Shown in pieces: positions 17,556-20,362 of a DNA stretch of 20,362 nucleotides. The notes beneath the pieces are model-generated. The model saw nothing but the letters and a program-made list of their open reading frames with translations. It was not told the DNA's origin and made no database searches. The stretch is taken from the IMG/VR virus record IMGVR_UViG_3300042361_001087, positions 1-20,362 of that record; one strand, written 5' to 3'. This DNA is from a virus. The position numbers and the translations under genes were made by a program. How positions within the stretch are numbered: the first letter of the stretch is position 1; every line of letters starts with the position of its first letter.

Positions 17556-17930
17556 TTAACGATTGCGACCTTCGCGACGTTCTCGACGGGCACGAGCGGC
17601 GCGAGCGCCTGCGCGCAGCGCACGGGCTGCTAGTCGGCGGAGAAGGCCGGCTCGCCGCCCTCCAGTTTCCGATCCACCGCCACCCGGACGACGCGAGCCA
17701 CCGCCCGGACGACGTGAACCGCCCGGACGACGCGAGCCACCGCCCGGACGACGTGAACCGCCCGGACGACGCGAGCCACCGCCCGGACGAGGTGAACTTT
17801 CTGGATTGCTTGGCGTGCGGGGGCGACGGGTGCCGCCGGGAAGGCGTGAATCCGACTCGGGAACAAGTTCCATTCCGTCGTCTGAGGGGCGAATGCGTTC
17901 CGTATCGCGCCCAGTTGTGGGAGTTGGCAT
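17556..17930 (-). CDS. Gly/Arg/Pro-rich disordered protein with tandem repeats
   Basis: This is a predicted 124-residue protein. The ATG at 17928-17930 follows a GGAGG site with seven-base spacing, which decides the frame in a region where all frames are open. About 45 ordinary residues come first (acidic patches such as ELVPESDS). They are followed by three copies of a 13-residue unit, GGGSRRPGGSRRP, and then a strongly basic tail rich in Arg, Ala and Leu with a repeated ARA/RRE pattern. The whole protein is probably disordered and could bind nucleic acid or an acidic surface. It lies 57 bases after the ParB-like gene and 28 bases before the head-tail adaptor gene, so it may belong to either group. 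No homologue is recognised, and low complexity makes any functional guess unsafe. Confidence 0.6.
   Translation of the reverse strand: MPTPTTGRDTERIRPSDDGMELVPESDSRLPGGTRRPRTPSNPESSPRPGGGSRRPGGSRRPGGGSRRPGGSRRPGGGSRRPGGGGSETGGRRAGLLRRLAARALRAGARAARARRERREGRNR
17680..17796. repeat. 39-base tandem repeat, three copies
   Basis: Three head-to-tail units of 39 bases are visible. Each consists of an 18-base half and a 21-base half that share CCGCCCGGACGACG. The first copy differs slightly at its start and the last copy carries one substitution (gacgag for gacgac). The length is a multiple of three, so copy-number changes would keep the GGGSRRPGGSRRP frame of the surrounding gene intact. Confidence 0.9.
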
Positions 17931-17987: not shown

Positions 17988-18548
17988 TCACTTAATAGGC
18001 TGATCGGGCGTAGGGGGCCTTTCGATCGCAATAGAAATTTGTTCAATCCCCGCTGGCGCCTCCACCGGCACCCATGCTCGCGAATAAGTGTGAGCATTCA
18101 CTTTTCGGGCCTTCAGCAAACCCGGATCGGCTAGCAGGTCAAATTCTTCCCGCTGCATTCCAAGCATGCGCCGCAGTGTGACTTCGTCGTATTTGTGGGA
18201 TCGCAACACGCTTGAGAGCAAGCGACTCAAATTTTTGCCGTAAAGCGAACCCCGCCCCCTGTTGAGACGAACATGCATGACCATTGCGTCAATATCATCG
18301 CAATCGACCCATTTGACGGGAACAAGCCCCCTATCGCGATCAACTATTTCTTTTTCGTTTGCTGCGATCATCCATCTTTCATGGCCGTCAATAATCGTCT
18401 GATTATTGCTGTTGGCAACAATTGGTTGAAGCCAACCATAAGTCGCCAAACTGGTGACAAGAACTTTTTGGTCAGGCTTCAATATGTAGGTGCTGCGCCA
18501 TTTCGCTGGTCGCAACGAGCCGCCAGAAACTAAATCAATTGACATCAT
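17988..18548 (-). CDS. ParB/sulfiredoxin-fold protein, IbrB-like
   Basis: This 186-residue protein has the ParB N-terminal-domain signature. GWLQPIV occurs at residues 38-44, TIIDGHERW at 51-59 (the conserved DGHxR nucleotide-binding loop), and NRGRG at 96-100 (the second conserved arginine box). It lacks the long helix-turn-helix and dimerisation regions of chromosomal ParB, so it is not a partition protein. In the Ibr pair of enterobacterial prophages a ParB-domain protein (IbrB) is coupled to a PAPS-reductase-like protein (IbrA), and the same pairing recurs in many phages. Here its ATG overlaps the TGA of the IbrA-like gene (ATGA), so the two are probably made together. ParB-fold domains bind CTP, ATP or ADP, or act as nucleases; which applies here is unknown. 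Confidence 0.83.
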   Translation of the reverse strand: MMSIDLVSGGSLRPAKWRSTYILKPDQKVLVTSLATYGWLQPIVANSNNQTIIDGHERWMIAANEKEIVDRDRGLVPVKWVDCDDIDAMVMHVRLNRGRGSLYGKNLSRLLSSVLRSHKYDEVTLRRMLGMQREEFDLLADPGLLKARKVNAHTYSRAWVPVEAPAGIEQISIAIERPPTPDQPIK

Positions 18549-19708
18549 CGGTAATCATCCAATGCATCTAGGGAATTGGCGTCGGCCTCCGCTTGCGCAG
18601 CGGCCATGCGAACCGCATGGGCGCGCGTTTTGGGACCGACTGGGTTCACAGAGGTTATTTGAATTTCGTGAAGAAGCAAGTTGCGCACGAGCCACTCCAC
18701 CGGATAGGAAAACGGATCCTTTTTGTGTTTATTGCGGAACTCTGCCGCATACGCTTGCGCCCGACGACGAATGCCGGGCGTCAGCATGTTGTCATCGATG
18801 CACTGGCTCACGCCGTCCCAGCCATTTGCCGCGTACGAGGCAATAAGGGCTTCTATATCGAACTCCGGCCACCACCGGCGCTGGGCATCAATCTGCGGGA
18901 AACACTCAACTAGTCGGTCGTAAAAATCGGGCTCAGTGGCGACAAGGTCGCCGATGCGGCGGATAGCAACCGAGTGCAAAGGAATTCCGACACGACTATT
19001 GGACTTGGTCATGGCGGCAAGGTCGTAGTACTCGCAGAAAGTGCCTCCATGTTCCTCCGCAACAAACTTAAAAACGTCGTCCGTCGTCCAGTCGTAAATG
19101 ACTTTTGCAAAACGCAGGGGAATGGACTTCTTCATGCGGAACGGAACCACAATGTAGTTCTCGTGCAACTTCTGAACGCACGACCGGTACCGGATCATCG
19201 ATTCGTTTGCCCGCACGCCGGTAATAAAAGCGGTGCGGCCTTTCTTGCCTTGCATTGTGTAGTAGTCCACCGACTGCGGCAAAGCCTCGTTCGGAGGCAA
19301 ACCAAAATGCTCGGCACGAATCGCCCATGGCGGCATTTCTCTTGCCAGTCGCCCTTCTTGGGCGCGCATTCCGCTCCATAGCAGCACATACTCGCGCTGG
19401 CCAAGAACCCAGATCTCGCCACCGTACGGCAGGCAGTACCACTCCATGTCAACCCAGTCGTAGTTACGAACCTCTTCCACAAACTTGATGACGGCAGGCG
19501 ACACCATTTCTTCGTCGCGAAAGATGACCTTTACGGGTCCAAGATCGCGTTCTTCGTGGACCTCTTTGGCAAGGTAAAGGATGGCGGTGGAATCTTTGCC
19601 GCCGGAAAACTGGACGCAGACGGTGTCAAAAGTGTCGTAGACATGACGAATGCGTTCTCGTGCGGCGTCCACGCAAGAGATGTCCAAAAACATCCGTTGT
19701 CGCGTCAT
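18545..19708 (-). CDS. PAPS reductase-family PP-loop ATPase, IbrA-like
   Basis: This 387-residue protein belongs to the phosphoadenosine phosphosulfate reductase/adenine-nucleotide alpha hydrolase superfamily. The PP-loop SGGKDST lies at residues 35-41 after a short beta strand (VCVQF). A GVRANESMIRYRS segment at 164-176 and YDWTTDDVF at 205-213 match the conserved downstream blocks of the family. The length, and the immediate ParB-like neighbour, fit the IbrA group (PAPS reductase fused to a DUF3440-type region) better than metabolic CysH (about 240 residues). There are scattered cysteines but no classical ECGLH motif at the C terminus, so sulfate reduction is unlikely. The likely chemistry is ATP-dependent adenylation or sulfur transfer on an unknown substrate. 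The gene starts in an ATGA overlap with the 51-residue gene and ends in an ATGA overlap with the ParB-like gene. Confidence 0.85.
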   Translation of the reverse strand: MTRQRMFLDISCVDAARERIRHVYDTFDTVCVQFSGGKDSTAILYLAKEVHEERDLGPVKVIFRDEEMVSPAVIKFVEEVRNYDWVDMEWYCLPYGGEIWVLGQREYVLLWSGMRAQEGRLAREMPPWAIRAEHFGLPPNEALPQSVDYYTMQGKKGRTAFITGVRANESMIRYRSCVQKLHENYIVVPFRMKKSIPLRFAKVIYDWTTDDVFKFVAEEHGGTFCEYYDLAAMTKSNSRVGIPLHSVAIRRIGDLVATEPDFYDRLVECFPQIDAQRRWWPEFDIEALIASYAANGWDGVSQCIDDNMLTPGIRRRAQAYAAEFRNKHKKDPFSYPVEWLVRNLLLHEIQITSVNPVGPKTRAHAVRMAAAQAEADANSLDALDDYR

Positions 19709-19860
19709 CGCAGTCGCCCGTCAAAGAGATCGTTCCACGCTGCGGCGGCCCGCAAGCGCCGTGGACCGAAGCGGCGAGTAGCGCCGATTTTGCTAGTTGC
19801 CCGATAGCAAAACAGGCAGCGCTCAACCCCGTGCCTAAATGTCTTAGTCGATGTGGGCAT
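19705..19860 (-). CDS. 51-residue basic protein with one CxxC motif
   Basis: This short gene fills what would otherwise be a gap between its neighbours. The ATG at 19858-19860 is preceded by a good ribosome site, GGAGG, nine bases upstream. Its TGA at 19705-19707 overlaps the ATG of the PAPS-reductase-like gene in the arrangement ATGA. The protein is very basic. It has a Cys-Leu-Phe-Cys pair at residues 15-18, an arginine-rich middle (RRFGPRRLRAAAAWNDLF) and a Trp-Asn-Asp-Leu-Phe motif near the end. The single CxxC could bind a metal or an iron-sulfur cluster if the protein dimerises, but that is inference. The strong ribosome site and overlaps on both sides make it a real gene despite its size. 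Function unknown. Confidence 0.72.
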   Translation of the reverse strand: MPTSTKTFRHGVERCLFCYRATSKIGATRRFGPRRLRAAAAWNDLFDGRLR

Positions 19861-20113
19861 TACTAATAGCCTCCAGCAGGTTTGGCAGTAGTTTGGTTGA
19901 CATTGTAGCGCTTAGTTTCACTTGGCACAAAAGTTGATCCAAATCTTTGACTTCAATTTCGTCAAGACCAAGGAGCAAATTTTGCAGGACCGCCACTTTG
20001 TCAATAAAACGCTGAAGCACTTCCGCAATTTCTTGGGAATAAAAGTACAGGTCGTGCGAGTCGCTTGAACGCAGTACGTTTAAGGCCGCCTCTGGGGTCA
20101 AGTTGAGTTCCAT
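19844..20113 (-). CDS. Small alpha-helical protein of unknown function
   Basis: This is an 89-residue protein starting at the ATG at 20111-20113, which shares one base with the upstream stop codon. A TTG one codon earlier is possible but less likely. The sequence is acidic, leucine-rich and cysteine-poor (one Cys), with heptad-like spacing over about residues 27-85, for example VLQRFIDKVAVLQNLLLGLD. This suggests a helical bundle or coiled-coil protein. No catalytic motif is visible and I do not recognise the family. Its 3' end overlaps the following 51-residue gene by 17 bases, which places it in the same operon as the PAPS-reductase-like and ParB-like genes. Confidence 0.75.
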   Translation of the reverse strand: MELNLTPEAALNVLRSSDSHDLYFYSQEIAEVLQRFIDKVAVLQNLLLGLDEIEVKDLDQLLCQVKLSATMSTKLLPNLLEAISNAHID

Positions 20114-20362
20114 CAAAAGTCGGCGTGGTCGTCAATGAAGTGCAGGATCCGCTCGGCGATAGTGTCCCCTTTGGTGCCGCTGTCGGTCCGCAGCCACCGC
20201 AAAAAGTCATACCAGCGACGCTGTTGATCTGCTTCGTCAAAAACCAGCATGTACTGGACCACCGCTTTCGTTCCGGCCGCGCCCACGCTTGTCGATCCGC
20301 GAGTTATGGCTTCATGGGTGTCTACTGACGCAGGGGCTTTGATGTGGGAGGGCTCAGGGCGG
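20113..20362 (-). CDS. Unknown phage protein, C-terminal part (start beyond window)
   Basis: This reading frame is open from the right edge of the window and ends at a TGA at 20113-20115. The visible 82 residues include an aromatic and basic stretch, QQRRWYDFLRWLRTDSG, followed by an acidic C terminus ending HFIDDHADF. I do not recognise a family with a known function. The stop overlaps the next gene's ATG by one base (TGATG), so the two are probably translationally coupled. The frame is convincing because it stays open across the whole visible span with sensible composition, whereas the competing frames are arginine- and cysteine-rich or short. The true start and full length cannot be seen. 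Confidence 0.7.
   Translation of the reverse strand, partial: RPEPSHIKAPASVDTHEAITRGSTSVGAAGTKAVVQYMLVFDEADQQRRWYDFLRWLRTDSGTKGDTIAERILHFIDDHADF

Follow-up and report, generated by a model that had tools for sequence, protein, structure and literature searches.

A PAPS-reductase-like PP-loop enzyme and two ParB-fold proteins form a conserved phage gene triad that may modify nucleic acids

What does a PAPS-reductase-like PP-loop enzyme do in the late region of a phage, and with which partners does it act? This question is raised by the virus record IMGVR_UViG_3300042361_001087, which we analysed over its complete length of 20,362 bp (the window) and which is itself a fragment. Its minus strand encodes, in this order, the C-terminal 82 residues of a ParB-family protein cut by the window end (ParB1; 20113..20361), a 90-aa ORF (19844..20116), a 51-aa ORF with a CxxC motif (19705..19860), the PP-loop protein of 387 aa, which would be the core enzyme (hereafter PAPS; 18545..19708), an IbrB-like ParB-fold protein of 186 aa (ParB2; 17988..18548), a small arginine-rich, low-complexity protein (17556-17930) and a head-tail connector gene. 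Beyond the connector we found sheath, tube, tape measure, baseplate and tail fibre genes, i.e. the late region of a contractile-tail phage. A first-pass annotation had recognized the late region and had interpreted PAPS, ParB2 and the 51-aa protein as an IbrA/IbrB-like pair with a small third subunit, possibly active in nucleic-acid modification or in altering host expression. These three ORFs lie on the minus strand at the positions that it gave, and its 4-bp overlaps are correct as well: recomputed, the overlaps amount to 4 bp between ParB1 and the 90-aa ORF, 17 bp between the 90-aa and 51-aa ORFs, 4 bp between the 51-aa ORF and PAPS, and 4 bp between PAPS and ParB2.

Is the 51-aa protein a constituent of the system? 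The ORF contains a single CxxC (CLFC) and is probably translated, because it has a strong Shine-Dalgarno sequence (GGAGG); in this phage, its translation may be coupled to that of PAPS. A function as cofactor or specificity subunit, as initially proposed, found no echo in its distribution. Among 80 IMG/VR PAPS loci a relative was present only in an identical contig, a search of 50,697 phage records gave nothing significant (best E about 5), and family searches with the 51-aa protein and with the 90-aa ORF, the latter present in 5 of 81 loci including the window's own copies, returned no match for either. In several relatives ParB1 adjoins or overlaps PAPS, with a gap of -1 to 12 bp and nothing in between. 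Based on the missing conservation and on this abutment, we dropped the 51-aa protein as a third subunit.

The truncated ORF at the end of the window had been missed in that annotation and, judged by its sequence, it is a second ParB. Its 82 residues align with the C-terminal part of the ParB family phrog_723 (E 2.8e-5), and tblastn detected ParB1 in 38/81 loci. The identical contig holds the full ParB1 with 262 residues and its N-terminus at the contig edge (L002:1-789); in relatives, the full protein measures about 260 aa. The model of a full-length ParB1 relative superimposed on ParB-CTP structures with a Z-score of 14.3 and an rmsd of 1.5 over 89 residues, while free serine kinase and sulfiredoxin scored lower (Z 8-10). 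For its C-terminal domain the match list contained no clear structural relative, which does not by itself indicate a new fold. ParB2 matches phrog_2159 (E 2.8e-30); scanned alone it stays below the Pfam cut-off, but its family profile reaches the ParB-type protein Noc (7ol9) at 1.2e-8. The GERR nucleotide motif of ParB CTPases is absent from both proteins: ParB1 has a GNHQ-type motif, most ParB2 proteins have a GxHR-type motif, and the ParB2 of the window has DGHER at this place.

Is the arrangement of one PP-loop enzyme between two ParBs common among phages? We found the order ParB1-PAPS-ParB2 in Arthrobacter phage Salgado, Mycobacterium phage Phlyer, Bacillus phage 022DV001, M. abscessus prophi79-1 and a plasmid-borne Amycolatopsis prophage, with the terminase adjoining the triad in four of these five, and also in Rhizobium phage L338C. 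The loci of Salgado, Phlyer, 022DV001 and L338C share with the window the clade, the three proteins and their order, but their PAPS proteins are only 30-38% identical to that of the window and several of them add a methyltransferase, phrog_11826. The first ParB of L338C (L085:4245-4940) is labelled as a DNA methyltransferase, yet it matches ParB_N at 4e-7, and Pfam detected no methyltransferase domain in it. In IMG/VR and GTDB genomes taken together, a ParB is located within 2 kb of PAPS in 218 of 248 loci (the best-scoring 80 per search, near-copies included), whereas the remaining parts of these loci would lead one to expect about 1%. The pairing seen in the window thus recurs in unrelated phages and prophages.

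Within the window clade, ParB2 lies directly downstream of PAPS in 49/80 IMG/VR loci, and PAPS stands alone in 26 loci. The two largest genomes of the latter kind (L260 and L261, of 137 kb and 105 kb) carry both ParBs elsewhere: ParB2 is still beside the connector genes, its ancestral site, PAPS has moved away, and ParB1 is encoded at another place. Three further large genomes of the clade contain an unlinked ParB1. Indeed, each of the 11 window-clade records with a length of 69 kb or above contained all three genes, even when scattered; shorter records without a ParB are fragments and carry no information on absence. At the level of sequence, these observations point to ParB1-PAPS-ParB2 as a conserved three-protein machine across unrelated phages. 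The system is accordingly redrawn: the proposal of three parts holds, but the third partner is the co-inherited ParB1 and not the 51-residue protein. We looked for PAPS-ParB gene fusions among the relatives and found none, and the open-access literature yielded no description of a ParB-PAPS-ParB triad.

Might the triad serve DNA packaging or partition, so that the ParBs do the work and PAPS regulates it? The terminase next to the triad in four phages and the connector genes near it in the window clade would suit such a function. However, no other gene in the comparison is as conserved as PAPS, which shows 10-16% nonsynonymous differences to its relatives against 29-38% for ParB2 and 19-35% for the connector genes, and in two genomes it has moved from ParB2 without being lost. 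We therefore regard a packaging function as quite improbable. The synonymous differences of PAPS reach about 80% (pS about 0.8) and are saturated, which rules out a recent horizontal transfer as the cause of its high identity; purifying selection on the enzyme is strong.

How closely does this system correspond to IbrA/IbrB? In a tree of 98 sequences, calculated by a quick method and containing some long branches, the family splits into a two-ParB clade of 28 rows, which includes the window (SH-aLRT 99), and an IbrA-type remainder. The C-terminal domain DUF3440 (PF11922) was found in 4/4 IbrA-type proteins scanned (5e-24 to 1e-86), whereas it was absent from the window protein at E up to 1 and from three other proteins of the two-ParB clade (0/4 with the window). 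Because of the absent DUF3440 and the separate clade, identity with IbrA is ruled out; by sequence, the enzyme is IbrA-like and belongs to a sister group of IbrA. The first assignment to an IbrA/IbrB-like pair is consequently right as to the architecture, a PAPS-reductase-type PP-loop protein, homologous along the core domain, with a ParB-fold partner immediately downstream, but not as to the lineage. A further difference is the second ParB upstream, which IbrA-type loci, known from E. coli prophages, from Streptococcus and Flavobacterium phages and from Listeria lmo1310/lmo1309, rarely possess.

For the sister family, which includes IbrA/IbrB of E. coli, a role in co-activating the expression of prophage genes has been described (PMC4490671), and records of Rhizobium and Streptococcus phages name it accordingly. 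By analogy, the triad could regulate genes, with the ParB-fold proteins binding DNA, a property of this fold, and the PP-loop protein sensing nucleotides and co-activating late phage genes or host genes. We consider this unlikely, since the window protein is devoid of DUF3440, and since the strict conservation of its PP-loop and substrate motifs, together with the enzymes encoded nearby, suggests catalysis over sensing.

Which reaction would such an enzyme catalyse? PAPS matches the Pfam domain PAPS_reduct (PF01507; E 3.4e-8, 34.2 bits with a cut-off of 22.5) and phrog_2302 (E 1.8e-73), and its AlphaFold model (pLDDT 89.7) aligns with PAPS-reductase-fold structures at Z 13-16. The PP-loop fold initially read from the letters is thereby borne out, as is the ParB fold by the profile of ParB2. 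Best among the structural matches was the PAPS domain of human FAD synthase (Z 16.4), followed by PAPS/APS reductases (Z about 14-15), FMN adenylyltransferase (14.4) and CysD (14.1); FAD synthase and CysD also lead the sequence profile search. In an alignment of 79 diverse members we found SGGKDS, DxE, R166/E169/S170/R173, D206, D211, Y228 and R239 to be invariant, but no cysteine. The best-kept cysteine, C92, occurs in 85% of the members overall, but in only 1/5 Salgado-like members.

These features bear on the common reading of such genes as auxiliary sulfate-assimilation genes encoding a CysH-like PAPS reductase. The PAPS_reduct domain is in line with this reading, which the literature has applied to such phage genes (PMC6145125, PMC10434257). 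Nevertheless, PAPS matched no NCBIfam CysH equivalog model at E up to 1, no conserved cysteine is available to serve as the catalytic one, and the constant pairing with ParB has no place in sulfate reduction, so that we regard a CysH function as extremely unlikely. The modelled fold alone leaves the chemistry undecided, since FAD synthase (Z 16.4) and the reductases (Z about 14-15) score close to each other; adenylation nevertheless fits PAPS better than reductive sulfur transfer. FAD synthase and the ATP sulfurylase subunit CysD, both with adenylyl-transfer chemistry, are its best structural and profile matches, but they are metabolic enzymes without ParB partners and share only 13-17% identity with it.

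If adenylation is the reaction, its target could be a small molecule, either a metabolite or a signal: PAPS would then be an adenylyltransferase or act in nucleotide metabolism for counter-defence, and the ParB-fold proteins would be kinases or NTPases, like free serine kinase. FAD synthase as the best fold match, the similarity of ParB1 to free serine kinase and sulfiredoxin, and an ectoine-synthase-like cupin in relatives speak for this possibility. On the other hand, ParB-CTP structures match ParB1 better (Z 14), and neither the position beside the terminase in four triad phages nor the presence of two ParBs of DNA-binding type would be explained. A small-molecule target thus appears rather improbable to us.

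Could the target be DNA and the group transferred sulfur, as in Dnd or Ssp phosphorothioation? In such a pathway PAPS would take the part of DndC or SspD and a ParB that of DndB, with the host supplying a cysteine desulfurase. A PAPS-type enzyme and a ParB-fold partner also occur together in Dnd (PMC10853773), and the general likeness of a PP-loop enzyme joined to a ParB-superfamily protein extends to SspD/SspE and BrxP. The sequence matches are weak: the DndC model TIGR03183 reached 26.2 bits with a cut-off of 290.4, its best stretch covering about 60 residues of the PP-loop region (residues 18-79), and the BrxP model matched the same region weakly. DndC was not among the structures listed for the PAPS model, though a likeness may still exist. 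In 18 related records we found no cysteine desulfurase (control 14/14). DndD (TIGR03185) was likewise found in 0/18 records, some of them incomplete, where no control genome reached the cut-off either, and DndE (PF08870) in 0/18, where the controls gave no match either. Sulfur chemistry, which the first-pass annotation had brought up by way of DndC, is therefore disfavoured by the lack of an invariant cysteine, by FAD synthase as the best fold match and by the fact that neither cysteine desulfurase nor, within the limits just given, DndD was found in the sampled genomes; phosphorothioation in particular seems very unlikely.

Further hints come from the enzymes that accompany the family. The methyltransferase phrog_11826 is encoded beside the triad in three phages, of Arthrobacter, Bacillus and M. 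abscessus, and in 5/8 Salgado-like contigs. An ectoine-synthase-like cupin (PF06339) is encoded directly between IbrA and IbrB in 38/80 viral loci (PF06339 E 1e-33 to 2e-46; e.g. L199:6299-6688, L213:4753-5244 and 36 other IbrA-like loci) and within 6 kb in 60/80; in Mycobacterium phage Nebkiss it is fused to a ParB (L090:5317-6216), and GNAT enzymes occupy the cupin slot in some other loci. These cupin and GNAT links, for the former of which we found no published report, belong to the sister IbrA clade and not to that of the window, which calls for caution in extending them to the triad. SNF2 helicases are frequent neighbours too, as also at Listeria lmo1309-1311 (PMC5736727), but they may simply belong to the usual replication genes of phages. 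Within the 20-kb fragment, no tailoring enzyme was identified near the genes of the window itself. A constant core with varying tailoring enzymes would be the pattern to expect if a system modifies nucleic acids or metabolites, and the role in nucleic-acid modification first suggested for this locus hence remains plausible.

Taken together, the triad might best be read as an ATP-dependent nucleic-acid modification complex with two putative ParB NTPases as DNA handlers, to which we assign a probability of roughly 40%. This model builds on what was observed: three genes that are inherited together, the folds of their products, and no conserved cysteine for sulfur transfer. PAPS would spend ATP to adenylate or activate a substrate, as its likeness to FAD synthase and ATP sulfurylase suggests, and ParB1 and ParB2, with their ParB/sulfiredoxin fold of NTPase type, would bind or position DNA. 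The complex would act on a nucleic acid, probably on the DNA of the phage itself at a late stage of infection, close to packaging; for DNA speak the ParB fold, the location in the packaging region and the neighbouring genes. The accessory enzymes of relatives, a methyltransferase or, in the sister IbrA clade, a cupin or GNAT, may tailor the product. We infer that the purpose would be protection of the phage by evasion of host defences.

We further speculate, with more doubt than belief, that this amounts to a novel DNA hypermodification pathway in which the adenylating PP-loop enzyme and its two dedicated ParB NTPases install a non-sulfur group, which tailoring enzymes exchanged from phage to phage would complete (the methyltransferase phrog_11826, the ectoine-synthase-like cupin or GNAT). 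If so, the pathway would comprise many phage genes that now carry the label PAPS reductase or cysH. Even the broader reading as a modification complex would correct a common annotation, since phage PAPS-reductase genes are often reported as sulfate-assimilation genes; with no invariant catalytic cysteine and two ParBs in every larger genome examined, the window-clade enzyme fits better as a component of a machine directed at nucleic acids. Because phages with the triad can be cultured (Phlyer on M. smegmatis, Salgado on Arthrobacter), its three genes offer a tangible target for a direct test of the long-open function of IbrA/IbrB-type pairs.

Some minor features of the loci deserve mention. 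WhiB-like ORFs were noticed by eye near lone-PAPS loci (L024, L043 and others), which suggests actinobacterial hosts for the window clade. In one relative (L013:7012-9681), two ORFs separate ParB2 from the connector genes; by eye, one is glycosyltransferase-like and the other ADP-ribosylglycohydrolase-like. The arginine-rich protein by the connector gene may be DNA-binding; in relatives, too, it is encoded between ParB2 and the connector (L007:6772-7131, L015:6790-6966 and L029:6732-7247).
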